From the NCBI RefSeq assembly GCF_964275005.1, contig NC_092693.1, forward strand, positions 28,511,173 through 28,575,172: a stretch of 64,000 nucleotides of DNA, given 5' to 3'. Below, in pieces: positions 2,594 to 44,754 of the stretch. The notes below the pieces were generated by a model. That model ran no database searches, had not been told where the DNA came from, and saw nothing but the letters and a program-made list of their open reading frames with translations. The position numbers were made by a program, and so were the translations under genes. Every line of letters starts with the position of its first letter. The stretch's first letter is position 1. The stretch is from Diadema setosum (taxonomy: Eukaryota; Echinodermata; Echinoidea; Diadematoida; Diadematidae).

Positions 2594-3044
2594 GTAAATA
2601 AGTTATATGCGTATTCTATTATTGAGTAATAATGAGCGATGCGCTATTTGAGGCACGCCTCTTTGTGTGTTTTCTGAGCACGTTGCGCTCATTTTTTAGC
2701 ATTGTTGTCTCGTTGCTAAGACGTGGGATTCTACCAACGCATTGTCTTGCAGACATTTTAAGAGATATAGATAGATACTTACTGACTTGCCGACTTACTT
2801 ACTAGACAATTCACAAGGCAGGAGATGATCATATAATTGGCCGATGAATTTTCACGGTGAGAACTTGACACCATTTTTCTTCAGAGACACTTTCCGTTCG
2901 GACTTTGTTGTTACACTCGGTTTCATTGTTACCCGATTTCTTCTGACTGTCAACACCACTCTCATTGTTACCTGAATTCTCTGAACTGTCTCATCGCCAT
3001 CTGGTTTTTCCTGGTTTTTCATCTCCGCGAACTCCTTTTTAATT
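2594..3044. other. Spacer and decayed edge of the 54-bp array
   Basis: The first 230 bases hold no gene that I can see. From about 2870 the minus strand shows decayed relatives of the array monomer: one frame reads EFAEMKNQEK and another reads SGNNESGVDSQKKSGNNET. The array therefore once extended further, with older and more divergent units at this edge. Confidence 0.5.
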
Positions 3045-4751
3045 TGTTGCATCGCTACCAGAACTAGACTCCATCATCTCCGAGAACTCCCTTTTAACCG
3101 TTGCATCACTACCGGAACTAGACTCCATCATCTCCGAGAACTCCCTTTTAACCGTTGCATCACTACCGGAACTAGACTCCATCATCTCCGAGAACTCCCT
3201 TTTAACCGTTGCATCACTACCGGAACTAGACTCCATCATCTCCGAGAACTCCCTTTTAACCGTTGCATCACTACCGGAACTAGACTCCATCATCTCTGAG
3301 AACTCCCTTTTAACCGTTGCATCACTACCGGAACTAGACTCCATCATCTCTGAGAACTCCCTTTTAACCGTTGCATCACTACCGGAACTAGACTCCATCA
3401 TCTCCGAGAACTCCCTTTTAACCGTTGCATCACTACCGGAACTAGACTCCATCATCTCTGAGAACTCCCTTTTAACCGTTGCATCACTACCGGAACTAGA
3501 CTCCATCATCTCCGAGAACTCCCTTTTAACCGTTGCATCACTACCGGAACTAGACTCCATCATCTCCGAGAACTCCCTTTTAACCGTTGCATCACTACCG
3601 GAACTAGACTCCATCATCTCCGAGAACTCCCTTTTAACCGTTGCATCACTACCGGAACTAGACTCCATCATCTCTGAGAACTCCCTTTTAACCGTTGCAT
3701 CACTACCGGAACTAGACTCCATCATCTCCAAGAACTCCCTTTTAACCGTTGCATCACTACCGGAACTAGACTCCATCATCTCCGAGAACTCCCTTTTAAC
3801 CGTTGCATCACTACCGGAACTAGACTCCATCATCTCCGAGAACTCCCTTTTAACCGTTGCATCACTACCGGAACTAGACTCCATCATCTCCGAGAACTCC
3901 CTTTTAACCGTTGCATCACTACCGGAACTAGACTCCATCATCTCCGAGAACTCCCTTTTAACCGTTGCATCACTACCGGAACTAGACTCCATCATCTCCG
4001 AGAACTCCCTTTTAACCGTTGCATCACTACCGGAACTAGACTCCATCATCTCCGAGAACTCCCTTTTAACCGTTGCATCACTACCGGAACTAGACTCCAT
4101 CATCTCCGAGAACTCCCTTTTAACCGTTGCATCACTACCGGAACTAGACTCCATCATCTCCGAGAACTCCCTTTTAACCGTTGCATCACTACCGGAACTA
4201 GACTCCATCATCTCCGAGAACTCCCTTTTAACCGTTGCATCACTACCGGAACTAGACTCCATCATCTCCGAGAACTCCCTTTTAACCGTTGCATCACTAC
4301 CGGAACTAGACTCCATCATCTCCGAGAACTCCCTTTTAACCGTTGCATCACTACCGGAACTAGACTCCATCATCTCCGAGAACTCCCTTTTAACCGTTGC
4401 ATCACTACCGGAACTAGACTCCATCATCTCCGAGAACTCCCTTTTAACCGTTGCATCACTACCGGAACTAGACTCCATCATCTCCGAGAACTCCCTTTTA
4501 ACCGTTGCATCACTACCGGAACTAGACTCCATCATCTCCGAGAACTCCCTTTTAACCGTTGCATCACTACCGGAACTAGACTCCATCATCTCCGAGAACT
4601 CCCTTTTAACCGTTGCATCACTACCGGAACTAGACTCCATCATCTCTGAGAACTCCCTTTTAACCGTTGCATCACTACCGGAACTAGACTCCATCATCTC
4701 CGAGAACTCACTTTTAACCGTTGCATCGCTACAGGAATTAGACTCCATCAT
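3039..4751 (-). CDS. 570-codon open frame across the array, Ser/Glu-rich repeat protein if expressed
   Basis: The frame starts at an ATG directly after an in-frame TAG that lies inside a decayed edge unit. It ends just after a truncated last unit. Each 18-residue unit has an acidic Ser-rich half (MESSSGSD) and a short basic stretch (VKRE). There is no signal peptide, membrane segment or known domain. Openness alone means little because the unit length is divisible by three. In favour of past coding, the decayed edge units still resemble the monomer in the same sense strand (EFAEM..., SDAAARR). No promoter, splice site or poly(A) signal was identified. It may be no more than a minisatellite. 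Confidence 0.25.
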   Translation of the reverse strand: MMESNSCSDATVKSEFSEMMESSSGSDATVKREFSEMMESSSGSDATVKREFSEMMESSSGSDATVKREFSEMMESSSGSDATVKREFSEMMESSSGSDATVKREFSEMMESSSGSDATVKREFSEMMESSSGSDATVKREFSEMMESSSGSDATVKREFSEMMESSSGSDATVKREFSEMMESSSGSDATVKREFSEMMESSSGSDATVKREFSEMMESSSGSDATVKREFSEMMESSSGSDATVKREFSEMMESSSGSDATVKREFSEMMESSSGSDATVKREFSEMMESSSGSDATVKREFSEMMESSSGSDATVKREFSEMMESSSGSDATVKREFLEMMESSSGSDATVKREFSEMMESSSGSDATVKREFSEMMESSSGSDATVKREFSEMMESSSGSDATVKREFSEMMESSSGSDATVKREFSEMMESSSGSDATVKREFSEMMESSSGSDATVKREFSEMMESSSGSDATVKREFSEMMESSSGSDATVKREFSEMMESSSGSDATVKREFSEMMESSSGSDATVKREFSEMMESSSGSDATVKREFSEMMESSSGSDATN

Positions 4752-4760
4752 CTCTGCGAA
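3045..4760 (-). repeat. 54-bp tandem array (coding-length minisatellite), about 32 units
   Basis: The array has 31 complete units and one partial unit of a 54-bp monomer. Read on the minus strand, each unit encodes the 18-residue peptide MMESSSGSDATVKREFSE. Inner units are almost identical. The recurrent difference is at one CpG in the sequence TCCGAG (plus strand), which appears as TCTGAG in five inner units (near 3295, 3350, 3455, 3673 and 4646) and as TCCAAG once (near 3728). The edge units are more divergent, as expected when unequal exchange homogenises the centre. There are no unique spacers, so this is not a CRISPR array. Because 54 is a multiple of three, any stop-free frame stays open throughout; two plus-strand frames are open as well. 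Confidence 0.97.
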
Positions 4761-5317
4761 CTACCTCCTAGCTGCAGCATCGCTATTCTCAGTTTCCTGC
4801 TACCAGGATATTCATTTTTTTTCCTCATCAGAGACATCTGCCTGATCTCTCCTGACTGTTCGTATATAGACCTATAATAATATTCTCAATTGTCACGGTA
4901 ACATTTAATTGCCTTATTCAATTGCCTTATTTTGGTTATTATTCGGGCATTCGTACAGTTCAAAGTAATCTAACTAGATGAGTGTAATATTGAAGTTGTT
5001 TATAATCTCAGAGAGTGTAGAATGTGGTCTATTACTTTTATTAGATTTATTTCAGATCCCAATACAATTGTCAAGTCCTTTTTTTGTCATTGGTTACAAA
5101 CAGATATAATTTCAAGTTCCAGTTAAGAAATTTACTGAAGAATTTAATATTTTATTTTTTCAAATAATAAAAGAACATAATTGATTATTCAATTAATTCC
5201 TTTTGTTTATATTTGTTGATGTTTGTGTCGTTTCTACCGATCTCTTATAGTTTTTGGTGGTTATACACGAAAGAATATGTATTAATATATTTGGTAGTTT
5301 CAAATCCTCCACAAATA
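4761..5317. other. AT-rich stretch without a gene
   Basis: One more decayed array unit runs to about 4790. The remainder is AT-rich with no recognisable coding, repeat or RNA signal. Confidence 0.5.
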
Positions 5318-11173: not shown

Positions 11174-12820
11174 GATGGAGATGGAGGGCCGTCCACTTTA
11201 CCACCAAGGCATTACGTCTGTACCGGAACTCAGACTACGGAATCTTCATTCTCCTCACCAAGCATTAGCACATCTCCACTGCAGACATCCCTCTCCAGTC
11301 CGTCATCAGTCTCCAATGACTCTACACCAACTCCTTCCTGCCGTGAACATTATTCTCCATTAGGAAAAAGCGATTCTCCATTCACCCCAACTAAAGCTTC
11401 TTCTCCTGCCTGGTCTCCTACACTTTCCAGTAATTTCTCCTCTCCACGTACGGACTCAAGTTTTTCTTCAGATACCAACAGTCCTGAAAGTCCTTTACAA
11501 GAGAGGAAATACATTATCTTAAAGTCGCCATTGCATGCATTAATTTCCAATATCAGATGCGAATACTGTGGTTCTGTTCCTGACCCAGATCAGTGTGACT
11601 GGCGAGAAGATGGAAGTCTGCTAGTCATATATGCTTGACATGCATTTCTGGACATTGTACAATCATGAAATGGCATTCCCAGCCCATGGAAGGTAGAATG
11701 GGTGCCGGAAATCTCCAGTTGGCTGCAGCAACCTTCTGTAGTGGCAGTCTTTTCCAACCCACAAAGCATCTCTTTCAGTTTATGAACATTGCATTTGTCT
11801 CTGAAACTGTCTTCTAGTCCACAGTTGGGGAACATGTTCTTCCTTCCATCAACACCTTGTACAATAAGCAGCAACAAGCTCTCCTCTCAGAACTCACAAC
11901 AGTCCGACTTGCAGGGGATGGACGATGTGATTCGCCCGGGCATAGCGCCAAGTTTTGTACATACAGTTTGATGGACCAGGAATCTGGCAAGGTGGTCAGC
12001 TACAAGGTCGTTCCAGTTACTGACACGTCATCATCTGTGCGAATGGAACTTGAAGGTTTCAAATGCTGCCATGGAGGAGCTTCAACAGAACAATGTCACT
12101 CCAACTGTCGCTGTCACCGACCGTCAATTACAAATCAGAAAGGAAATAAAAGACAGTCATCCTCAGATTAATCATCAGTTCGATATTTGGCATGTCAGCA
12201 AATCAATCAAAAAGAAACTTACCAAGAAAGCGAAATCACAAAACAACAAGGAGTTAGCTGCCTGGATCCCATCAGTCACCAATCATTTGTGGTACTGCAC
12301 AAAACACTGTGACAAAAACCCTGACAAGCTTGTTGAAATGTGGATAGGCATTTTACACCACATAGTCGATGAACACAGCTTTCGGATGAAGCATGTGACC
12401 AGCTGTAGTCACCCACCACTAGATCCTGAGGTAGCTAGAAAGAAGAAATGGCTGAAAAAGGACAGTCCCCCATTCAAGGCATTTGAGAGCATTATTCAAG
12501 ACAAGAGGCTCCTGAAAGATGTCCGGCAGTTGAGCGAATTTTGTCACACTGGAGACCTGGAGTCTTATCACTCCCTCATGCTGAAGTACTGCACAACGCG
12601 AGTTGGGTTCAAAGAACCCAACATGAATGCAAGAATGCAAATCAGGATCCTGGACCATAACTCAAATGTTGGGAGAGAACAAAAAACTGTGACAAAGCCA
12701 AAAGGAATCAGCCATATAGGAGAGATGCAGTACAGAGTTGCTTGTCCTAAAGCAACTGAGAAGTGGGTGCCATGTATAGTGTACGAAAATAAATGCTACG
12801 ACTTTGTCTGGGAGATATAA
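11174..12820 (+). pseudogene. Catalytic exon(s) of the Kolobok-type THAP transposase, broken
   Basis: It follows a good acceptor in phase 0. The first 154 codons are Ser/Thr/Pro-rich, then RCEYCGSVPDPDQCDWREDG, a family zinc-like motif. The coding sense then passes through other frames: KWHSQPMEGRMGAGNL, then LAGDGRCDSPGHSAKF, and finally a 256-codon frame with TVAVTDRQLQIRKEI, FDIWHVSKSIKKKL, NHLWYCTKHC and CHTGDLESYHSLMLKY. GDGRCDSPGH, the DIWH block and GDLESYH are where the acidic catalytic residues of this DDE family are expected. At least three frame breaks separate the pieces. Kolobok is my best assignment from the combination of THAP and this catalytic core; a P-element relative is less likely. 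Confidence 0.75.
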
Positions 12821-18062: not shown

Positions 18063-19325
18063 TAGTCCAGGCTAGAAGGCACCCAACCTTGTTTTTTGAT
18101 ATATACAATTTTTTTTTACGGTTTCTTGTCAATTCGAGGCTGCTGATTCCAAATCCGATTGATGCCACTCGCATAACCTTGAGCATTTTCGGCAAAATGC
18201 AGAAATCCAAAATGGCCGCCAGATATGCTAATCCGGCCGTGATAAACACAAAAATGTGCAATATATGACCAATCATTCCACCAAACTTTGTACATTTCTG
18301 TTCCCAGAGTTACTCAATCTGCATTTGCAAGAGAATTTTCATTTCATAGGCATATAGGTTCATTTAGTATTTAAAGCTCATCTTTTATTCAAAATGGCCG
18401 CCATTCCTATGCTTATGTACTATATGAATTGCAAAACATATGCATGGACACAGAGACTAATATCAAATAATGTTGAAAATGGAGGGAAAGCTAGAAAGCA
18501 AAGCTTCTAATATGCATTCCCCTAAAACCCTTAACAAAGTACAGAAAAATCCTGTACAGTATGTGCAGAGATACATGCTGGCAGACAAAAACACATCGGA
18601 CATTAATGACAGCTAAAAACCCTTTACATTGTATTTTTTTTTTCCAGCAAGGAGTGTGGGGGGGGGGGGGGGAGGGAGGAGTCCTGAGGCGAGTTTGAAA
18701 TGGATCATAACCTCCATCACTTTGATATGATTTAATTTAGAAGTACCGCCTTGATATTATCGAGCAAACTTGCAAAACTGTCCAAACGCAATACCGTACA
18801 AACTATTCATTAAACATCAATCAAGGAGCAATGTGAGATATCTCTTTCAGTTCTCTCACAGTTCCCAGGTGTTGATAATATACACTTTGACATCATGATT
18901 TAATTCAGTCTTGTCTTAAAACTAAAACTGTCATTTTTATTGTCCTTTAAGAACCCTTTAATTGGATGTTTGGCAGCAGGCGACATCAGCCACAAATTTG
19001 CAGAATTCTCAGGCTACAGATGCATATTAGTCCTGCAATTGCTTTAATTGCAACCACAGCTTATGATGACTAGCACTTCCTCAGGGGTCAGAGGGCGATT
19101 ATTTACAGAATGAAGACATGAAGACTTGCTTGATCACCACCCGTTGATGCCCTATATGGCTTTGTTGCCAGGCCAGAGACAGTGTTGTAGGTAACTTGGG
19201 TGGTATCAGAGATGACATCAGACCAGCATCTGCACCAACATGTTTTGGGGTCAAAGCTTTCAAGTTATACAGGAGGGAAATCTGGGCTTGTGGGATTTCA
19301 GACGCATTGATGGCAGGTTGTTCAA

Positions 19326-19452
19326 GGGGGCATTTCATGAAGCGTTTTGTCAGATCTTTTCTTATTGACAAACTGTTATAAGCTACTAAAATCCTTGCAT
19401 CTGATTGGCTGAGAGCAAATTTGTCAGACAAAACACTTCATGAAATGCCCCC
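19326..19452. mobile_element. 127-bp MITE nested in the long-inverted-repeat element
   Basis: Inverted ends of about 29 bases (GGGGGCATTTCATGAAG...TTGTCAGA) face each other around a short core. The same nested MITE is at 42776-42925, so it inserted before the host element spread. Confidence 0.85.
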
Positions 19453-19598
19453 ATGCTATCGTGTTGGGAAGGTCAGGGTATGCGTTGATGGCACTGGTGA
19501 CACTTGCCATCCTTTCCTTCCAGCATGAGGGAGAGCGATCGAGTGCCACTAGTGCCAGTAAAGGAGGGTGGACTTCCTTAGCATATGCTTGGAAGACT

Positions 19599-19802
19599 TG
19601 CCACAGAGGGCTACCTTGAACATAGCGTTGGCAAGATGGTTACTAAGATGGAAGGCATGGGTCTGATGATAATCTTATAAAGGTTGGGGCAAAGTCTCCA
19701 GAAGGTGTAGTACTCCTCTATTGTCGTGAGATGGGTCAGTACTCGGCTCATGTCATCCAAGGACTTTCTATGAGACGTAAAGGCAAGATCATGTGCAAAC
19801 AT
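19599..19802 (-). mobile_element. LINE reverse-transcriptase fragment inside the element
   Basis: The minus strand reads DLAFTSHRKSLDDMSRVL followed by TTIEEYYTFWRLCPN, resembling the region just after the catalytic DD of LINE reverse transcriptases that read YADDLA.... The fragment was captured by the DNA element. A longer version is in copy 2. Confidence 0.6.
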
Positions 19803-20967
19803 TCACTCCGAAAAAAAAAAAAAAAAAACTGGTGGTAAAATTCATCTACCATATAAAATTCATCTGGGTTAACATGAAAAACTTTTGGCCACTGTTTTCA
19901 TTTCAGAGATTTGAAGACAGGAAGTGAGGTGGTCCCTTTTTTCCAATTTCCCCTGCCTCATGTTCTTTCTCGGATGAGGGGACTGAAAAGTTTGTATAAT
20001 ATCGCTTTTAGAAGAACAGGACAGTTAATTGGGAATTTCATTTGTGTCATCATCTAGGATTCAGCCTTTTAATTCAGTAAATCAGAGTGAATATTATGAT
20101 GTTGAACATCTCAAGGCAGTAAGTATCAAATGTTCATATCTAATAATTCCCTGATAAACGGTCTTGATGTTAGCGTCACTTCAAGTTTTGGTGGATTTTT
20201 CCAAATTCCTAGGGGAAAATTCAAATTGAGGTAGTAAATTTGGATGTCTGCATCAAAAAATAAAACAGCTTTTGTTCGGAACAACCTTCTGATTTATAAG
20301 CAGCACACAAATGGATAAACAGTGTACCTGAGTGACAGAAAAAAGAAGAAGAAAATTTGTTTATTTCCATGTACACTTTGCCGTTCATAATGGTGTAGGG
20401 GTATATGAGTGGCATCCATTTTGAAGTTTTGTAATAAGAAGAATAAAATAAGCCTAAAAACAATAAATTTTCTGTTTGTTTGTTTGTTTGCTTGTTTTGC
20501 TAGTGGCACTCATCAAATTTGCATTGCACATGCAAAACTTGATAAAAGTGTAGGTATGTGACTAAAAAATCGTGTTCTATTTCGATGCATATTTTTTGCC
20601 ATTCATATAGCACATGAGTATAGGAGTGGTGGCCATTTTGAATTGAAAATAAGCTCAAAATACTACATGTACCTCTTCAAAAGAAAAACTTCTTGCGTAG
20701 AATTACTCAAGGAATAAAAAATTTTTTAAAAAATGTATGGAATAATTGGTCATAAGATTGACATAACTGGGATTATCATGGCCAAATTAGCATATCTGGC
20801 AGCCATTTTGGATTTTTTGCATTTTGCCGAAAATGCTCAAGGTTACGCGAGTGGCATCAATCGGATTTGGAATCAGCACCCTCGAATTGACAAGAAACCA
20901 TCAAAGAACATTGTATATATCAAAAAACAAGGTTAGTAGCACTTTCTATGGAGCCTAGCCTGGACTA

Positions 20968-26082: not shown

Positions 26083-26204
26083 GGGCTTTCTATAGCTCAG
26101 TCGGTAGAGCACCAGTCTAGCAATCCGGAGGTCTCGGGTTCGACTCCCGATGGAATCCCATTTCCTTTGCTCACTTTTCCACTAATAATGTATAAAAAAA
26201 AAAA
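26083..26204 (+). mobile_element. tRNA-derived SINE (tRNA-like head plus A-rich tail)
   Basis: Box A (TAGCTCAGTCGGTAGAGC) and box B (GGTTCGACTCC) of a tRNA-type polymerase III promoter are clear. The anticodon position would be AGC. The acceptor strands do not pair, the anticodon stem has two mismatches, and the 5' side has extra bases, so this is not a working tRNA gene. A short body and an 11-base A tail follow. Confidence 0.75.
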
Positions 26205-27281: not shown

Positions 27282-27470
27282 TGATTATCTTGATACTTAC
27301 ATGATAAAGGAAAATGAAAGAAATGACATTTAGAGTATGTTGTAAGTTTGCGTGATTGGTAAGATAATTATTCCCTTTATTTCTTTTTTCATTCATATAT
27401 TTCTTTAATGAATCGTTGTATGCATGTATTGACATCAGTATTGATTTCCTTTCTTGTTTTGTTTTATACA

Positions 27471-29462
27471 GCTTTTTCCTCGGAAGGCTGCTCGCCGGCG
27501 GTCCTTCCCATTAGACAAGCTAAAACAGGCTTTGCAGTTAGTAAAGGATGGCTGCTCTAAGAGAGAAGCTGCACTAAGATGTGGAGTACCTCGCACCACC
27601 CTTAGTGACCGTGTGAATGGCAACACAAAAAACAACTGCGAGGATCTGGGGAGAGGCACCTTGTTGACAAAGGAGGAAGAGAAGGCACTGGTGGATCTTC
27701 TTCGGTATCTGGCTTCTGTTGGCTATGGGCTTTCAAGGACGCATGTATGTTGATTATCATGTTCCTTTTATTATAGAAAATGAATATTTGTATGTCAAAA
27801 TATTGACGTTCCTAATTTTACCTAAAGAAAAATATTTTATTGCATTGCCATATTATACTTGAAAAGAATCATATGTATTCAATTGTCTTTTTCTCATGTA
27901 TTTCCTACTTCATCTCGTCACAGGTGCTACATCTCACCACTGACATGGTGGACCATTTGAACAGACATCCAGCTCAACTGAAAGGGAGACTGCTTTCGAG
28001 GCACTGGTTGCGTCGATTCATGCGGTGATGGCCTTGTATCCGGTTATCAACACCAAGCAAGCTCTCCATGAAAAGGGCAAGGGCGACAAGCAAAGACGTT
28101 TTCCTGCGGTATTTTGACGAGTTGAAGAGAGTTCTCACCAAATACCATCTTCTTGACAAACCAAGTCTTGTATGAGACCAACTTCAACACGGAACATACA
28201 CCACCATCCGTTGTTGCCAGTTCCAATCAGAAGACACACTCGATCACGTCTCAAAGAATTGGAACAACAACTCTGCTGGCCTGCAGAAATGCTGCAGGAC
28301 AAGCGATGCCGCCGTATTACGTTTTCAAAGGAAAACGTGGCATGGAGAAATTGCTAGATGGGACATTGCCTGGATCAAATATGTCAATGACGAGCTCCGG
28401 ATGGAGTAACACAGAGGTGTTCAAGACATTCATCAAGGACCACTTCCTAAAGTTGCTTCCACATCAGAAAGAGAATAAGCACATCCTACTCTTGTATGAT
28501 GGACATACCTCTCACATTTCAATACCTGTGACTGAGTTTGCACGTCAACATCACATCACTCTATTCGTACTGCCTGCCCATACTTCCAATGTGCTACAGC
28601 CACTGGACAACGCGTGCTTCTTATCAATGAAGAGAGCACACTTCACGGAATGTGGGAAGTTTATGCAACAACATCCCAGGCAACACATAACGAGGTTTGA
28701 TGTCGGAAGGTTATCCTCCATCGCATACCTCCGGGGCATGAAGGTGGAGAATCTCAAGTCTGCGTTCCGCAAGGCGGGAATTCTCCCCTTCAATCCGGAC
28801 GCAGTTGAAATCGAACAGGCAACAAGACCAAGTATCATGGTCACACCGAGACCAACAGACCACAGTAAGGTACTCAACGACCATGGTGTTGACAGACGAG
28901 TAGGAGTCATGGGTGATGCCGGCCCAAACCAGGAAGTGTCTGCGGAGGAGTTCCTCAAATCAAGAACTCCGAGTCCTCCACATGAGCCTAACAAGAAGGG
29001 GGGGGGGGGAATAGTGATGGCTTCAACGCATCCGGAAAATGCGTGACAATAGAGGATGCGGCCTACTTGCTCCTTTGTGACAAGAAATCAAGAAAGGCTG
29101 ATGCAAAGAAGACATCCACAAAGGCCAAAAGAAAATCGAAGCTGCAACAAGATCCACCAGATGGGCCGACAAAGAGCACTGAAAATACCAACAAGTCGCA
29201 GCCAGGTCCATCGGGTGCATGTCAGCCACAGTTACATTGAAGGCTGTTCAGCGACGATGAGGACACGGACGGTGGTGACGAGGAGCCATGCTGCGTCTGT
29301 AAACAGAACACTCCTCAAAATCGTGCTAAATCTCGAGGAATCGAGATTTTCTCTTGGGTTGCATGCGATTACAACCACTGTACACACTGGGTGCATCAAA
29401 AATATTGCACACCTTTGCACAATTTTGTCGAAGACGATATCTTCGAATGCCCTTGCCACTGA
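27471..29462 (+). pseudogene. pogo/Tigger-type transposase gene with C-terminal PHD-like finger, broken
   Basis: Exon 1 (27471-27744) encodes a psq/CENP-B-type helix-turn-helix: PLDKLKQALQLVKDGCSKRE, then ALRCGVPRTTLSDRV. A GT-AG intron leads to exon 2 at 27924 (VLHLTTDMVDHL...SRHWLRRF). The DDE_1 core follows from 28153: GTTTLLACRNAAG, LLLYDGHTSHIS with the second catalytic Asp, and VLQPLDNACF with the third. An in-frame TGA at 28026-28028 and a frame change near 28150-28170 break it, and the expected first-Asp block (xxNVDETG) is missing between DKPSLVY and ETNFNTEH. After a Lys-rich segment the last 60 codons hold a PHD-like C-x2-C...WVACDYNHCTHWVHQKYC...CPC motif. Pogo-type proteins with such fingers are known in invertebrates. 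The starting Met exon was not found. Confidence 0.85.
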
Positions 29463-31471: not shown

Positions 31472-33124
31472 TAGTCCATGGGCCAAGACCCGAAAAATAG
31501 GTTATTGGTACCACCTGAGGTGGCAAAACCTTTTTGGTGTCATTTTGTTTGTCGGGCATTGATATGCTTATCAAGCTATGATAGCATTTCCAAATGAGTA
31601 GCTTAGTCATATAAATAAATGAATTTTTAACCAATTTGGTCTCGTTTTTATATCCCTATACTTCTGAATCGAAACTAACCGCTATACAAAGAAGAGCACT
31701 CACTGTCTTCTGTATGTCCACAGGTGTTCTGTTGTAAACGCGGTGCGCTTAGTCTTTATTCAAGGCAGCGAAGGGAATATCCAAAGGGTTATGATGTCCA
31801 CAGCTGTCACCCGGTGCGCTTAGTCTTTATCTAGAACAATGTACCGTTATCATATCTGAAGTTCCTAATAAAAGGGATTATCTTTACTGTTTTTATACTA
31901 CCCTCTCAACAAAAACATCAGTTTTAAGCAAAAATCACTCTGTTCATTTGCAATATTATTTATTATAATGTATTGTAGTGTACCGGCCGTACATTGTTTT
32001 TGCATTATCTTTCATTGTTGGATGGAAATAAAGCGACATTGGCATGGTATTAGCATTTTCACCATAGCGTTTTCACCGGAAAATGATAAATAATTGAAAA
32101 ATACGGTAAAATTCACGAGGAATTCCTTTTATGTTGTTGTTGTTTTTATATAAAGGGATATACACTAGCTGTATTACAAGCTTTGGATATTCCCTTCGCC
32201 GTCTTGAATAAAGACTAAGCACTGTGGACATCATAACCTTTGGATATTCCCTTCGCTGCCTTGAGTAAAGACTAATCCCACCGCGTTTACAACAGAACAC
32301 CTGTGAACATACAGAAGACAGTGCTCTTTGTTGTTGTTATTTGAATTTATTTGGCGTTTGTCATTCCTCGAGGAATATTTACGCCAAATCTATATTCATA
32401 AAATTTCTTTAAATTTCCAAATTTTACCCAATATTATTTTCATTTTATTGCAAATAATTCAAAATTAATATAACATATCAAATCAAATAAATCTCCCTCA
32501 CTGGCCTCGGTTCGAGTTGCCCAATCGACATTGTATAGCGGTTAGTCTCGATTGTATAGTTTGTATAGACCGATTCGGGTTCGTTGAGGGCAGCAGACAA
32601 TTTGTGGCACTGGGCGCAGCCATGAGCTCATTTTGCGGTGTCTTAGCCGACCCCCCCTCCTCTCCCCCACCCCCCGGGCAACATGTTTATCACGCACTTG
32701 TAACAAAGGTTCGCGCATTTAGCAAGCATTCGCGCACTCAGTACGAGACGCCCATTGGCTAAAACAACCTTAATGCATCAGTTTTTCATTCCGTGCGCGG
32801 AAGGCGGTGGGGGAGAGGGGGTCGGCTGAGACACCGCAGTAATGGCGCTGCCCATGCCAAAAATACACATAGCGCGTCACAGAATCGGTCTATAGCGGTT
32901 CTTTGTATAGCGGTTAGTCTCGATTCAGAAGTATAGGGATATAACAACGAGACCAAATTGGTTAAAATTTCATTTATTATGACTAAGCTACTCATTTGGA
33001 AATGCTATCATAGCTTGATAAGCATATCAATGCCCGACAAACAAAATGACACCAAAAAGGTTTTGACACCAAAAAGGTTTTGCCACCTCAGGTGGTACCA
33101 ATATCTGGCCTGGCCCATGGACTA
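31472..33124. mobile_element. 1.65-kb palindromic element with TAGTCCATGGGCCA ends
   Basis: Left arm from TAGTCCATGGGCCA and right arm to TGGCCCATGGACTA are inverted copies over about 240 bases (shared GGTGGCAAAACCTTTTTGGT and GATAGCATTTCCAAATGAG). The palindrome continues inward with GTTCTGTTGTAAACGCGG and AAGGGAATATCCAAAG words. The right arm is interrupted at 32331-32893. There is no transposase frame. The first seven bases (TAGTCCA) equal those of the elements at 18063 and 41336. Confidence 0.8.
32331..32893. mobile_element. Insertion in the right arm, itself containing a CpG-rich palindromic MITE
   Basis: The right arm reads up to GTGCTCTTTG and resumes at TTCTTTGTATAGCGG; a CTTTG word is present on both sides, as after a 5-bp target duplication. 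Within the insertion 32529-32893 has inverted ends (TTGTATAGCGGTTAGTC) and inner inverted words (GCGGTGTCTTAGCCGACCCC). Confidence 0.6.
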
Positions 33125-34503: not shown

Positions 34504-34659
34504 TGTAGGGTAACATCCCCAGTATTCGGTCACTTAAGCTTTTTTGCAATATTTTTTAAACTAAAATGATACATACAGACATCATATCTACAGCAATGTA
34601 TGTGAAATATATCAAATTTCTTTAATCTCAACTTTCATTTCGTTAAATATCTCACAGAA

Positions 34660-36089
34660 TAGGCCGGTTTACTAATGTATGCACAGATCTTTAATTTTGC
34701 ACACGGCCGCAACCTCGGGCAAACAAAGGATGCGAGCCTGCAACGTCGGCTGCTGCAGCCGTCCCCGACACGTCCCCACATGTATACTTACGTGTATGTT
34801 GTGTACATGTGTGCGATGCATCAACTTCGATTTTACCTTCTGGCATTTCGTGTGGCTCTAAATCAATTCCCAACCTTAGATGAGGGAAAATTCTGCTGTG
34901 ATCAAACGCAGTTTGGACTATAGTTTCGATTTTATTGAATTTTGGCTTCGATTTTGTCTTCAGTAGTTCTGAAAATGGGTGGAAAACACTGCTGCTACGG
35001 AACATACAACAGTATGACCGCATCACTTCAAACTTCAATGATTTTAAGCATTGTGATTGATTGTGAAATCTAAACTAGACAACGAATCTGTCATAATCGA
35101 TATGTTTCCAAGGATTTTTTTATTTTTAAAGTTAGACTCAAACTGATTAGACCTCATGAAATAAAATGACGATTTTGACCTAGGCCTATTTTTCTATTAA
35201 CGATAACAGTTAGGGGGCCTAGCCCTATATAGATCTAGACTAGATCTAACGGTTAGAGTAGATCTAGACGTAGGCCTAGACCTAGAATTAAAACAAAAAC
35301 AATGATAGACCGAACGTCCCTGACATTCGCAGTAGGCAACATTTATTTCCCCCGTTGACTTATTCATCACGACCCAGGTCTAGTACGTTGGTTTGTTGAG
35401 GTATGTCCGGTCGGCCTAACCTCACTACGGATAACAGGAAAAGGGCTCGTGTCCGAAACCTCATTGAACTCAGGCTTGAAACACTCCCATCCGCGAAAAG
35501 ACGGTAGTCCTCAAATGACTTGTATCCCTTTAGCGTTTCCAGTCATAGTCAGTCCAATTGATGATCAGGTAGTTGAACACGTCAAAGAGTCCAAAATCTG
35601 GAATACTCTCGAAGTTGGATGTAAACCCAGCGAGCTTGTTAGGGTCGGAGAACGAGCAGCCTACCAGAGGCTTAGCGAGCTTCTCCTGCAGTGACCGGCC
35701 GGTGTCCGCCCGGGAGAGGTCGAGATCGACGGGCAAATCCAAATCGGCTACGGCAGTTGCACTAGTTTGATAAGCTTCTCCTTGTTGTAGCCGCTTGTGC
35801 TCACACCTATATCCCTAAAATACTCAGTTAATTCCTTAACTGTCCAATTCTTCCATGGCTTACTCGAACTTTGGCTAGAACTTGAAGCTGACGCCATCTC
35901 AAAGCAAGATTATAGCAAACGAAAGTTGTCGATTATCCGCAGCGAGTAATGATCGTAGACAATACACGCGTGAATGCAAAAGCAGTGTGGCGCGCGCGTC
36001 CGCGCTTATTTCGCTTGCCCGACTTAGTTACAATCACTAGGGTCGCGTGGGGTTGACGTCATTATGCATATCATTAGTAAACCGGTCTA
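34660..36089. mobile_element. 1.43-kb inner element with TAGGCCGGTTTACTAATG ends, carrying a SAP-gene fragment
   Basis: The two ends match in inverted orientation over 18 bases with one mismatch (TAGGCCGG versus TAGACCGG). The gene fragment inside runs on the minus strand, starting 192 bases in from the right end. The rest of the gene is absent, so this is a shortened derivative of a larger element. A CpG-rich stretch covers its right end and the flanking bases. Confidence 0.65.
35450..35897 (-). pseudogene. 5' fragment of a SAP-domain gene (multicopy SAP/SWIM/YqaJ-type family)
   Basis: The minus strand starts with an ATG at 35897 and reads a Ser-rich leader, then WTVKELTEYFRDIGVSTSGY followed by NKEKLIKLVQ, a good match to a SAP helix-turn-helix DNA-binding motif. 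The coding sense goes on with VDLDLSRADTGRSLQEKL, FESIPDFGLFDVFNYLI and YKSFEDYRLFADG. This order is typical of a repetitive family in marine invertebrates whose full members continue with SWIM zinc-finger and YqaJ nuclease-like regions; neither region is present here. It is broken, with about two breaks. The assignment of the missing parts is from memory of the family, not from this window. Confidence 0.6.
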
Positions 36090-36712
36090 TTGCACAAAAT
36101 CGCGAAATGTTTCACCTTGAAAATTCCCCAGTATACGGTCATCGGCTCCAGTATTCGGTCACGCGATGTGCGCGTTCAAAGTCAATGCGTGTTCAAGGCA
36201 GCTGAAAAACGCGCGCGCGCGCTACCTTGTTGGCGCAGAATTGCATCGGGGACGTTGCGGCGACCGTTGGTGACCGAATACTGGGTCCTCGGCACTTGCA
36301 TTCAACCCTTGTACATTGGGACACTGTATCGGCACGTACGGACATTTTGTTTTTCTTTTGCGTTTTTGAGGATACCATTACACTCCAAGCTTGCGATAAG
36401 CGAAAAATCCCGCGAGAGAACGGCGTATTTCTCGATTTTTAGCGCTTTTTTGGCGACCCGTACTCTTATAACTGGGCCTTATCCGCGCGCGCTTTTGGAA
36501 AGTAGCGCCGATTCTGCACTTTTGACGGTAAAATTTGGGACTTTGGATGGATTTTTGGAGGGGGCTAAGGGAGTTTCCTATTGTGAATGAGTGTGGAAGT
36601 ATGTGAATTAATGTGATTTGCGTGTGTTGTGACAGTTGAACTTACTGGCTGGTGACTAGTGATAAGTGACCGAATACCGGGGGCTGACCGAATACTGGTG
36701 CCCTTACCCTAC

Positions 36713-39232: not shown

Positions 39233-39637
39233 CTATTCACTAGAATAAGGTTGCAATAAAGAAACTTTCAATTTCCTCTTGAATGAGTATATTGAGGGGG
39301 CATTTTTGATATCAGGATGCATGGAATTCCAATAGCTCGGGCCAGTATAAACAAATGTGTTCCTTGCTAAAATCGTACGGAAAAGAGGTAAATGATATTC
39401 GTTAGAGCGTCGAGTTGGATATTCATGAAATGACTGATTTTTTAGGAACATGGAATGGAAAACATCAGGAAGAAGATTATTGTTGTACATATACATAAAT
39501 TGACCTAAATTGAATAAAAACAAATCTCTAAATTTTAACAACTTATTAGAGGCAAACAGTGCATCTGTATGAGAACGTATGGGAGAATAACAAATGACAC
39601 GAAGAGCTTTCTTTTGCAAAAGGAACACTCTGTCCAA
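39233..39637 (-). CDS. C-terminal part of the LINE protein
   Basis: It reads LLDRVFLLQKKALRVICYS, then ARNTFVYTGPSYWNSMHPDI and a basic end, the usual tail of jockey-group proteins (iQKKalRvI..., yrGp.lWN.lp). It continues the reverse-transcriptase frame after a single frame shift at about 39640. Confidence 0.8.
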   Translation of the reverse strand: MDRVFLLQKKALRVICYSPIRSHTDALFASNKLLKFRDLFLFNLGQFMYMYNNNLLPDVFHSMFLKNQSFHEYPTRRSNEYHLPLFRTILARNTFVYTGPSYWNSMHPDIKNAPSIYSFKRKLKVSLLQPYSSE

Positions 39638-39639
39638 CA

Positions 39640-41335
39640 GATTTTTGGTGCGTGTTGCCCCAGACTAAAATTCCATAATTAAGGTAAGGCAATATCAATG
39701 ACGAGTATAACATAAGTAACAATTTTTTAGGTAAACACAATTTTAATCTATTAATTACGCCGCCTATATTACGTGAAATTATATTGCAAATATAATCGAT
39801 ATGCAATTTCCAAGAAAGTTTCTCATCTAAAATAACCACAAGGAATTTAAAATGTGAAATTCTTTCCAAAGGAGTGTCATCCAAAACTATGTCAGTACTT
39901 AAAGTGCCAACAGTATTACTAAAAAGCATATATTTCGTTTTCTGAACATTCAAGGAGAGCTTATTAGCTCTGACCCAATTTGTTACTTTCTTCAACTCGC
40001 TATTAACTTTTCGAACAAGAACATCAATATCGCTATGAACTAGAAATACATTAGTATCGTCAGCAAAATGAATAAAAGAAAGAGCTTCAGATACTTGACA
40101 AAAATCATTGATATAAATAATAAATAACAATGGCCCTAACAAACTTCCCTGAGGAACCCCACATTTAACTTCTCTGATCACCGAGTTATCATTTTTGATT
40201 GTAACAAACTGTCTTCTATTGGATAAATAACTCTTGAACCACTCCAAGGCCTTCCCACGTATTCCATAATGTGATAACTTGTAAAGCAATATATCATGAT
40301 TAATTGTATCGAAGGCCTTGGAGAAGTCCAAGAAAATGCTAATCAAATGAGAGTGGTCATCAATTGCACGAGTCACTCGTTCAACAAAACTTAAGAGAGC
40401 ATGACTGGTATTGTGCTTCTCACGAAAACCAAACTGAGAATTTGAAAATATTTTATATTGTTTCAGAAAATTAGTCATTCTCTTATGAATAAGTTTTTCC
40501 AGAACTTTAGACAACGAAGATGATAATGAAATTGGACGATAATTACTGGTATCAAGTTTATCGCCTTTTTTGAATATTGGAATTACTTTTGCTAATTTCA
40601 TTTTTTCAGGGAATACGCCCTGGGATATTGACAAATTAAATATATGAGCAAGAGGATCAGCGATCGACGATATAACACCTTTTAAAATAACATTATCAAT
40701 CTCATCATAACCAGAACTTCGTTTATTCTTTAAAGAAAATGCCATATCAATTATTTCATATCTATTAGTAGGAGTAAAAAATATAGAGGTGGGATTAAAC
40801 TGACCTAAGAATTCAGTGAAATGGTTCTGAGTAGCAGGAATATTTTGAGCAATTGTTTCACCAATTTCTGAAAAGAAGGAATTAAAAGCATTTGCAATGT
40901 GAACAGAATCATGAATTATTTCGTCATTCATCTTAATGTTATCAATATCTGAATTTTTACTTGCAACATTCATGGCCTGTTTTAAAACCTTCCAAGTACT
41001 TTTTATATCAAACTTATATTTCAATAATAACTTTGAATAATATCTTTTCTTTTCAGATCGTAGAATCATTGTTAAAGTATTTTTATAAGATGTATATTTA
41101 TTCTTAGATAATTCATTCCTTTTCATTTTGTACTTATAGTATAATCGATTTTTCCTGTTAATAGAACGGAGAATTGATTTTGAAATCCAAGGTAATCTGG
41201 GTGTCTTTTTATAATCTGATTTATTCTTTTGTTTTGGAATTATTTCATCCAAATGGTAATTAAAAATTTCCGTAAACTTGTTAAAAGACAAATTAATATC
41301 ATCACTTTCTAAAACTCTCGACCAGTCAGTATTAT
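39640..41335 (-). CDS. LINE reverse transcriptase
   Basis: About 560 open codons. The N-terminal linker (WSRVLESDDINLSFNKF, PWISKSILRSINRKNRLYYK) is followed by reverse-transcriptase blocks: KVIPIFKKGDKLDTSNYRPI, QFGFREKHNTSHAL, IFLDFSKAFDTINHDIL, GVPQGSLLGPLLFIIYIN, and the catalytic HFADDTN. The next blocks are WVRANKLSLNVQKTKYMLFS and LNYGILVWG. All expected catalytic Asp residues are present. The open frame runs on into the neighbouring inverted repeat, so its first 65 or so codons there are accidental. Confidence 0.9.
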
Positions 41336-42775
41336 TAGTCCAGGCTAGAAGGCACCCAACCTTGTTTTTTGATATATACAATGTTTTTTGATGGTTTCTT
41401 GTCAATTCGAGGGTGCTGATTCCAAATCCGATTGATGCCACTTGCGTAACCTTGAGCATTTTCGGCAAAATGCAAAAATCCAAAATGGCCGCCGGATATG
41501 CTAATTCGGCCGTGATAAACACAATAATGTGCATTATATGACCAATTATTCCACCAAACTTTGTACATTTCTGTTCCTAGAGTTACTCCATCTGCATTTG
41601 CAAGCGAATTTTCATTTCATATAGGTTCATTTAGCATTTAAAGCTCATTTTTTTATTCAAAATGGCCGCCATTCCTATGCTTATGTATTATATGAATGGC
41701 AAAACATATGCATGGAAATATAGAACAAATTTACTGTATTTCCAGTCCCGTACCTACGATATCATGAAGTGTTGCATGTGCAATATGTTGGGTGTCAATT
41801 ACAATATACAGGGGGCCTACATATATGAGCATTTAATATTCATAAACCTTACGATGTTGAACACAATTTCTTATATATTTCATTTTATCTCAACAAAAGT
41901 CTCAACAATATAAGTTCACTAAACGTCTCGCAAGGAATCAATATACCATCATATTCTGCATGCCGGTTGAGTAAAAAAATGTAATACTAAAACAATATAT
42001 TAAGGAGCCTAGATACATGGTATTTATCAAATAATGTTGAAAATGGAGGGGAAGCTATAAAGCAACTTATAAAACAAGCTTGTAATATGCATTCTCCTAA
42101 AATCATATTAACAAAGTACAGAAAAATCCTATACAGTAAGTGCAGAGATACATGGTTGCAGACAAAAACACATCGGACATTAATGACACAACTAAAAACC
42201 CTTTACATTGTAGATTTTTTTTTTTCCAGCAAGGAGTTGGGGGGGAGCAGTCCTGAGGCGAGTTCGAAATGTATCATAACCTCCATCACTTTGATATGAT
42301 TTAATTTAGAAATGCCGCCTTGATATTATCGAGCAAACCTGATTTTCTTCTTGAATTAAAACAACAATAAAAACTGTTGAAGGCATAAACGGAACTGTCC
42401 TAATGCAATACCGTACAAACTGTTCATTAAACATCAACCAAGGAGCAATGTGAGATACCTCTTTTAGCTCTCTCACAGTAACATGTTCCCAAGTGTTGAT
42501 GATATACACTTTGAAATCATGATCTCATTCAGTCTTGTCTTAAAACTAAAACTGTCATTTTTTATTGTCTTTAAAGAACCCTTTAATTGTATGTTTAGCA
42601 GCAGGCGACATCAGCCCCAAATTTGCAGAATTCTCAGGCTTAAGATGCGTATTAGTCCTGCAATTGTTTTAATTGCAACCACATCGTGGTGTTCAGCACT
42701 TCCTCAGGGGTCAGAGGCCGATTACTTGTCATAGAAACAGGATGAAAACATGAACATTGATGGCAGGTTGTTCAA

Positions 42776-42925
42776 GGGGGCATTTCATGAAGTGTTTTGT
42801 CAGATCTTTTCTTTTTGACAAACTGTTATAAGCTATTAAATCCTTGCATCTGATTGGCTGAGAGCAAATTTGTCAGACAAATTTGTCAGACAAAATGCTT
42901 CATGAAATGCCCCCCCCCCCCCCCC
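42776..42925. mobile_element. Nested MITE, second copy
   Basis: Counterpart of 19326-19452, with the right end extended by a 17-base C-run and an internal doubling of ATTTGTCAGACAA. Confidence 0.8.
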
Positions 42926-42928
42926 ATG

Positions 42929-43476
42929 CTATCGTGTTTGGAAGGTCAGGGTATGCGTTGACGGCACTGGTGACAATGGCCATCCTTTCCTTCCAGTGTG
43001 AGGGAGAGTGATCGAGTGCCAGTGAAGGAGGGTGGCCTTCCTCAGCCTATGCTTGGAAGGCTTGCCAGAGAGGGCTACCTTGAACATAGCGTTGGAAAGA
43101 TGGTTACTAAGATGGAAGGCATGGGTCTGATGATAATCTAATAATAAAAGGTTGGGACAAAGTCTCCAGAAGATGAAGTACTCCACTATTGTCTTGAGAT
43201 GGGTCAGTACTCGGCTCATGTCATCCAAGGACTTTCTATGAGACGTAAAGGCAAGATCATCTGCAAACTTCCTACGTGAAGTGAATGTAATGTCACCACA
43301 TATGTTAAAAAGACCTCTAGTGGAGTTAGTTTGCAGCCACCATGAAGGAGGCCATCATTCAGAGTCCCAACACAGCTGGTCTGGTTACCGAGAGCAATCC
43401 TGAATCTGCAAATGCTGAAGATTAAAGACAAGCAGTGTGAAGTTGTTAGAACACTGCTTTCAGAATGAGGAAGCAC
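42929..43476 (-). mobile_element. LINE reverse-transcriptase fragment, longer version
   Basis: The minus strand reads RIALGNQTSCVGTLNDGLLH and PLEVFLTYVV, then, in another frame, SLDDMSRVLTHLKTIVEYF and CPNLLLLDYHQTHAFHLSNH. It matches the region around and after the catalytic DD of LINE reverse transcriptases. At least one frame break. It was carried along inside the DNA element. Confidence 0.6.
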
Positions 43477-44754
43477 TGTACAGATCTCAGAGTCTCCCTC
43501 GACATCATAGGCCTATACTCAATCACATTCACTCCGAAAAAAACGGTGGTAAAATTCATCTACCATATATAATTCATCTGGGTTAACATTAAAAATTTGG
43601 GGGCATTGTTTTCATTTCAGAGATTTGACAACAGGAAGTGAGGTGGTCCCTTTTTCCACTTTCCCCTGCCTCATGTTCTTTCTCGGATGAGGGGACTGAA
43701 AAATTTGTATAATATCGCTTTTAGATAATGTAGAACAGGACAGTTAATTGGAAATTTCATTTTTGTCATCATCTAGGATTCAGCCTTTTAATTCAGTAAA
43801 TCAGAATGAATATTTTGATGTTGAACATCTCAAGGCAAGTAAGTATCAAATGTTCATGTCTAATAATTCCTGATAAACGATCTTGATCTTGGCGTCAATT
43901 CAAGTTTTGGTGGATTTTTCCAAATACCTAAGGAAAAATTCAGATTGAGGTAGCAAATTTGGATGTTTGCATCAAAAAATGAAACAGCCTTTGTTAGTAA
44001 CATCCTTCTGATTTATAATCAGCACACAAATTGGTAAACAGAGTACCTGAGTGACAGAATTTTTTTTTTTTTAATTTCACACGCTCTGCCGTTCATATTG
44101 TGCAGGGGTATATGAGTGGCATCCATTTTGAAGTTTTGTATTAAGAAGAATATAATAAGCCTAAAGACAATAAACTTTCTGTTTGTTTGCTTGTTTGTTT
44201 GCTTGTTTTGCTAGTGGCACTCATCAGATTTGCATTGCACATGCAAAACTTGATAAAAGCGTAGGTATGTGACTGAAAATTCGTCTTCTATTTCTATGCA
44301 TATTTTTTGCCATTCATATAGTACATGAGTATAGGAGTGGCGGCCATTTTGAATTGAAAATAAGCTTAAAATACTAAATGTACCTCTTCAAATGAAAAAT
44401 TTCTTGCATGTGCAAGTAGAATTACTCAAGGAACAAGAATTTAAAAAACTTTGATGGAATAATTTGTCATAAAATTGACATAACTGGGATTATCATGGCC
44501 AAATTAGCATATCTGGCGGCCATTTTGAATTTTTGCGTTTTGCCGAAAATGCTCAAGGTTACGCGAGTGGCATCAATCGGATTTGGAATCAGCACCCTCG
44601 AATTGACAAGAAACCATCAAAAAACATTGTATATATCAAAAAACAAGGTTAGGTGCACTTTCTATGGAGCCTAGCCTGGACTACAGCCCTGCATGTAACT
44701 ATGTTACAATTCAATGAGCACAGAGATGAGCAATTATACAAAATAAATCCTTGG

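Follow-up and report, generated by a model that had tools for sequence, protein, structure and literature searches.

Results

The stretch of DNA analysed here (the window; 64 kb, positions 28511173-28575172 of contig C9) contains two concentric pairs of inverted repeats, the outer at 34505-34532/36685-36712 and the inner at 34658-34677/36072-36091. Comparable inverted pairs numbered 11 across the window and none in each of 20 Markov controls, and the inner 18-mer pair, which did not arise once in 100 shuffles, is beyond chance. Both nested pairs are real, as the original prediction had it, and the inner one does enclose the start of a SAP-like gene on the minus strand.

The inner repeats bound an element of 1428 bp (34661-36088), which we argue below to be a non-autonomous, internally deleted ISL2EU transposon. 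Its left TIR (AGGCCGGTTTACTAATG, plus strand) occupies 34661-34677 and its right TIR (AGACCGGTTTACTAATG, minus strand) 36072-36088; each is adjoined by an AT target duplication, at 34659-34660 in the context A|AT and at 36089-36090 in the context AT|T. Between the TIRs lie, on the plus strand, a remnant of the start of ORF1, the THAP-transposase gene (34975-35073, beginning MGGKHCCYGTYNS), and, on the minus strand, the decayed exon 1 of ORF2 (35317-35897), which runs in several frames from a SAP-like N-terminal piece (35751-35897) to the first half of a SWIM finger (...INVAYCECQG).

The outer element spans 34508-36709, has the ends GGGTAACATCCCCAGTATTCGGTCA ... TGACCGAATACTGGTGCCCTTACCC, and measures about 772 bp without the insert. 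Its boundaries were identical in all six genomic copies fetched; these copies and that of the window start with GGGTAACATCCCC, end with TTACCC and have TA adjoining both sides (7/7; 34506-34507 and 36710-36711 in the window), a TA target duplication being the criterion for Tc1/mariner. The motif CCAGTATTCGGTCA is a terminal or subterminal, inward-facing repeat found at 34519-34532 on the plus strand, with further sites at 36128 and 36148 on the plus strand and at 36271, 36667 and 36685 on the minus strand, so that the window holds six sites at no more than two mismatches versus 0.30 expected by chance. TIRs, TA duplication, inward-facing repeats and high copy number are shared with TA-target non-autonomous DNA transposons, Tc1/mariner-like or other, from which the outer element differs in its ends, GGGTAA...TTACCC. 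We conclude that it is a non-autonomous TIR transposon of about 0.77 kb, separate from the inner element, that duplicates TA. Its family is numerous, with 324 candidates genome-wide. A third inverted pair (33665-33683/36957-36975; TAGCCTGACCAGACGCTGT, 95%) surrounds both elements and has TA at its start and end.

Several other features were seen elsewhere in the window. Inverted repeats bound the stretches 18083-20936, 31501-33105 and 41655-44354, which are perhaps other DNA transposons. A region at 27445-29043 with HTH_psq (2.3e-4) followed by DDE_1 (2.2e-16) is presumably a pogo/Tigger-like transposase, and a reverse transcriptase on the minus strand at 39549-41576 (RVT_1, 1.5e-37) marks what we take to be a LINE-like element. 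Weak MULE/Mutator matches under the cut-off (1.1e-4 and 5.4e-4) at 11818-12817 perhaps reflect an unusual or decayed transposase. A 54-base tandem unit is repeated 32.4 times at 3019-4766 with 98% matches and several frames open, and a tRNA-Ala (AGC) gene lies at 26085-26159.

As the original prediction proposed, the genome (912,680,840 bases in 102 contigs) was searched for the same ends. The 18-base inner end TAGGCCGGTTTACTAATG occurs exactly 62 times, including the copy in the window, whereas the reversed pattern occurs 0 times; a looser pattern that left the fourth base free and tolerated one mismatch gave 142 + 131 hits versus 2 + 1 in the control. Twenty of the 61 other exact-end places, the first in list order, were fetched as stretches of 9.9 kb each. 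An inverted partner end with at most three mismatches was present at 19 of them; at the remaining place (L028) no partner end was found within its fetched 9.9-kb stretch. Together with the window this makes 20 pairs, two of which (L020 and L021) have their flanks in common and represent one duplicated locus. Sixteen pairs measure 1386-1443 bp and the others 1829, 2719, 3991 and 6148 bp. Among the 17 copies shorter than 1.9 kb, pairwise identity ranges from 94.8% to 99.8% (mean 96.4%). L016, L017 and L019 were considered as complete long copies and rejected, their length coming from inserts that interrupt the frames as read by eye; the insert of L016 looks LINE-like on such a reading.

All 20 exact-end pairs are flanked by AAT on the left and ATT on the right. 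The same flanks were found at three further short pairs and at one long copy, described below, for a total of 24 of 24 pairs (L020 and L021 being one locus). Because the inner element lies inside a repeat, other copies of that repeat supply the empty site. The window flanks were fused with the AT kept once, and the resulting query of 159 nt was compared with the outer copies: all 40 scored among the 324 candidates match at 99-100%, over 159/159 nt in 38 copies and over 157 in two. Read letter by letter in the six fetched outer copies, the junction is in each case CACAGAATTGCAC, that is, AATT. Since the empty site is AATT and not AATATT, the duplication is AT within A|AT|T, as published for ISL2EU, and a TA duplication is ruled out for the inner element. 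A constant target duplication, which the original prediction had suggested looking for, is thus present.

These observations bear on two alternative readings. One could envision that the inner and outer repeats, being concentric, form a single composite transposon that carries the SAP gene as cargo of its outer ends. The probability of this is close to nil, given that each of the 40 scored outer copies aligns through the junction with the inner element absent and that no outer-element match was found in the stretches holding the inner family (L001-L033); for this locus the uninterrupted outer copies refute it. Alternatively, the inner element might belong to another group that duplicates TA or three bases (Tc1/mariner, Pangu or PIF/Harbinger), or to an undescribed one. 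The flanks AATA/TATT, taken alone, are also compatible with a TA duplication, and ends starting with AG are found in many Pangu elements as well, according to the main text of Han et al. (2015; PMC4482050). We nevertheless consider such an assignment very unlikely, because it is at odds with the AATT empty site and with a gene content of THAP, HTH and DDE_Tnp_4 together with YqaJ (see below).

The minus-strand pieces between the inner ends begin with the SAP-like start and continue, in shifting frames, through ...IPDFGLFDVFNYLI..., KGYKSFEDYRLFADG and TWVVMNKSTGEINVAYCECQG. The SAP match of the window copy is under the Pfam cut-off. Among 13 copies, SAP_new25 was matched in 10 (best 0.0057), SAP in eight (best 0.0035) and Ish1 in six (best 1.3e-5), bit scores for the SAP and Ish1 matches being those of the window copy only. 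The fold match for the piece is moderate. We call the region SAP-like on the strength of these weak sequence matches and this fold match. The piece was recognised by motif in 13 of the 20 pairs, and its start lies 181-192 bases inside the right end in all but one of these (12 of 13; L019 carries an insert). A single shared stop, VQLP* (VHLP* in L023), terminates the SAP frame in the window and in all 19 fetched exact-end pairs.

A genome-wide protein search with the middle piece yielded 212 candidates, of which 150 matches were scored, and for a few of these the frame is open over about 200 codons. Four of the 150 (L029-L032) were chosen for the longest open frames and are, for that reason, not representative of the family. 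L029-L031 have a continuous frame of 200 codons from the SAP-like start through CECQGG (SECQGG in L030), and L032 has one of 199 codons without the start. At E 0.1, Pfam gave nothing for exon 1 of L029, and for that of L030 and L031 it gave Ish1 only, under the cut-off. Three of the four are themselves short pairs (1931, 2832 and 1427 bp in L030, L031 and L032, respectively). All four read through the SAP-frame stop; since this stop is common to the exact-end pairs and absent from L029-L032, the exact-end family already carried the break when it multiplied, and the break is a mark of that family and not of all deletion derivatives. In the same search, 38 of the 150 matches stop at residue 70 of the 94-aa query (for example C10:4127852-4128055 and C11:18636126-18636329), many with near-identical scores and about 90% identity, which suggests that they may represent a second deletion derivative with a burst of its own.

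Only one of the four long-frame places fetched, L029 on contig C5, has both YqaJ and DDE. The ends of this copy lie at C5:2011287 and 2021754 and are flanked by AAT...ATT. On its plus strand, in the adjoining stretch L033 that contains the other end, we found DDE_Tnp_4 (E 2.5e-48), HTH_Tnp_4 (7.1e-12) and THAP (6.5e-7). The start of ORF1 is MGGKHCCYGTCNSDSRY; the frame that contains this start has no THAP match, the THAP match lying just downstream in another frame. The THAP, HTH and DDE domains of an ISL2EU transposase are all present, though perhaps not in one intact frame. On the minus strand (L029) the 200-codon exon 1 is followed by SWIM and then by YqaJ (E 1.7e-16), the exonuclease of an ISL2EU second ORF. 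The frame of exon 1 ends and is followed by GG|GTAAGT, a donor-like splice site, and after an AG on the same strand comes ADGACRHVGAVLYEIEAF, the second half of the SWIM finger. With exons 1 and 2 joined by hand, the SWIM match is exactly at the Pfam cut-off (19.6 bits, E 0.00064). A further frame between the SWIM part and YqaJ had no Pfam match, and an LTR-type RNase H piece is present in the copy as well. We had considered dropping the word exon as wrong and kept it, given the donor-like site in the less decayed copies; in the window copy the exon 1 donor site is altered. The transposase gene and the SAP-like/SWIM/YqaJ gene of the C5 copy are convergent; we do not claim the copy to be intact or active.

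The C5 copy bears directly on what had been predicted. It is longer, has ends of the same kind and holds both genes, which agrees with the proposal that the window element is a TIR-bounded deletion derivative and that a TIR transposon carries a SAP/YqaJ gene along; of the intact gene that the prediction had suggested looking for in longer copies, the SAP-like, SWIM and YqaJ parts were found. Neither of the two contrary outcomes named beforehand occurred: the ends are not devoid of a SAP gene in all other copies, and YqaJ does lie between such ends, in the one copy read.

The window copy has exon 1 only, without YqaJ, and no transposase save the gene start. Over positions 1-356 the window element shares 94.7% identity with the left end of C5, where ORF1 starts; the ORF1 remnant of the window on its own had no Pfam match. 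Positions 419-1434 are 82.4% identical to the C5 right end, and scraps of 36 and 23 nt lie between. From the matches to both C5 ends, the window element consists of the two ends, the first transposase codons and exon 1 of the nuclease gene; it also appears to keep a little of that gene's first intron. With only 82% identity in the right half, the C5 copy is related to the window element but is not its direct parent.

The capture of host gene pieces is a known occurrence in some TIR transposons, and the SAP piece might likewise be a fragment of a host SAP/YqaJ gene, foreign to the transposon that transduplicated it. The exact-end copies read, which have a broken exon 1 only, would fit this reading. 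We regard it as extremely unlikely, and as largely refuted by the C5 copy, in which such ends enclose YqaJ and SWIM parts beside THAP, HTH and DDE parts, as described for ISL2EU in the main text of PMC4482050; the near-constant distance of the SAP piece from the right end (12 of the 13 motif-bearing pairs) also argues against it.

Discussion

With a probability of roughly 0.94, we assign the inner element to ISL2EU, as a non-autonomous transposon that was internally deleted, amplified in a broken state and inserted at AATT into a 0.77-kb TA element, the assignment resting on the target duplication and on domain content. Non-autonomous, MITE-like derivatives of PIF/Harbinger-type transposons are a known class. 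The inner family resembles them in having kept ends and target site while the interior was deleted, and in its many similar copies, and differs in keeping about 1.4 kb that includes a recognisable coding exon. ISL2EU, of the PHIS superfamily, is described in the main text of Han et al. (2015; PMC4482050) as confined to animals, with AT duplications in A|AT|T, one ORF encoding THAP, HTH and DDE domains and another encoding YqaJ, and the relevant part of a fish paper (PMC9179366) describes the same two ORFs. The survey of PMC4482050 was based on transposases and, by the account in its main text, could miss non-autonomous derivatives.

The inner family shares with ISL2EU the AT duplication in A|AT|T, the THAP, HTH and DDE ORF, the second ORF with YqaJ, and short TIRs. 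The original prediction had allowed for an undescribed group; this part was not sustained, the combination being that published for ISL2EU in the main text of PMC4482050. There are also differences. Given an AT duplication, the TIRs of the inner family begin with AGGCC or AGACC (AG(G/A)CC), whereas those of ISL2EU usually open with GG, as stated in the main text of PMC4482050. Unlike a complete ISL2EU, the window copy has undergone deletion and lacks both enzyme domains. ORF2 of the inner family has SAP-like and SWIM regions before YqaJ and apparent introns, features that the main text of PMC4482050 does not mention for ISL2EU; a word search of that text gave no occurrence of SAP or SWIM. In the literature searched, which lacks most subscription journals, we found no description of an ISL2EU YqaJ protein whose front half consists of SAP and SWIM regions, and no co-mention of YqaJ, transposon and "SAP domain" or of YqaJ and "SWIM domain". 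A co-mention of ISL2EU and "swim" in PMC4746887 was discarded, the words in the text concerned being Swimmer and swim bladder and not the domain; the negative for this pair of terms leaves out PMC12460157.

The history that we propose builds on what was read directly in the copies, namely the ends, the target site, the empty site, both genes in one long copy and the common break. The ancestor would have been a complete ISL2EU with convergent ORF1, encoding the THAP/HTH/DDE transposase, and ORF2, with several apparent exons encoding a SAP-like region, a SWIM zinc finger and a YqaJ exonuclease; beyond the splice signals read, this exon structure is a prediction from sequence. An internal deletion would have left both ends, the first ORF1 codons, and the 5' leader and exon 1 of ORF2. 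A copy in which the SAP frame was already broken would then have multiplied by cut-and-paste, presumably with transposase supplied in trans, as is usually inferred for a family that multiplied when broken. Its insertions would have gone into AATT with duplication of AT, and one of them, into the 0.77-kb non-autonomous TA-target element, would have produced the nested structure.

The nested structure, in which one non-autonomous element harbours a member of a non-autonomous ISL2EU family, is a finding that we place between the ordinary and the interesting and that needs no undescribed group. The family is closely similar in its copies, was amplified with its accessory gene broken, and adds a domain reading for the second ORF of ISL2EU. 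As an exonuclease with domains of the DNA-binding type, ORF2 may act in or around transposition. In one genome, a SAP-like/SWIM/YqaJ gene is demonstrably linked to THAP/DDE parts within the same kind of ends. This link helps the re-annotation of multicopy YqaJ genes; a clam genome paper (PMC7826175) counts this domain among endogenous viral elements. We propose tentatively, at somewhat less than even odds, that ORF2 encodes a SAP-SWIM-YqaJ enzyme, in which DNA-binding modules are joined to an exonuclease, that is active in transposition, and that the large YqaJ families reported from marine invertebrates, sometimes filed as endogenous viral, may mostly be second ORFs of ISL2EU.
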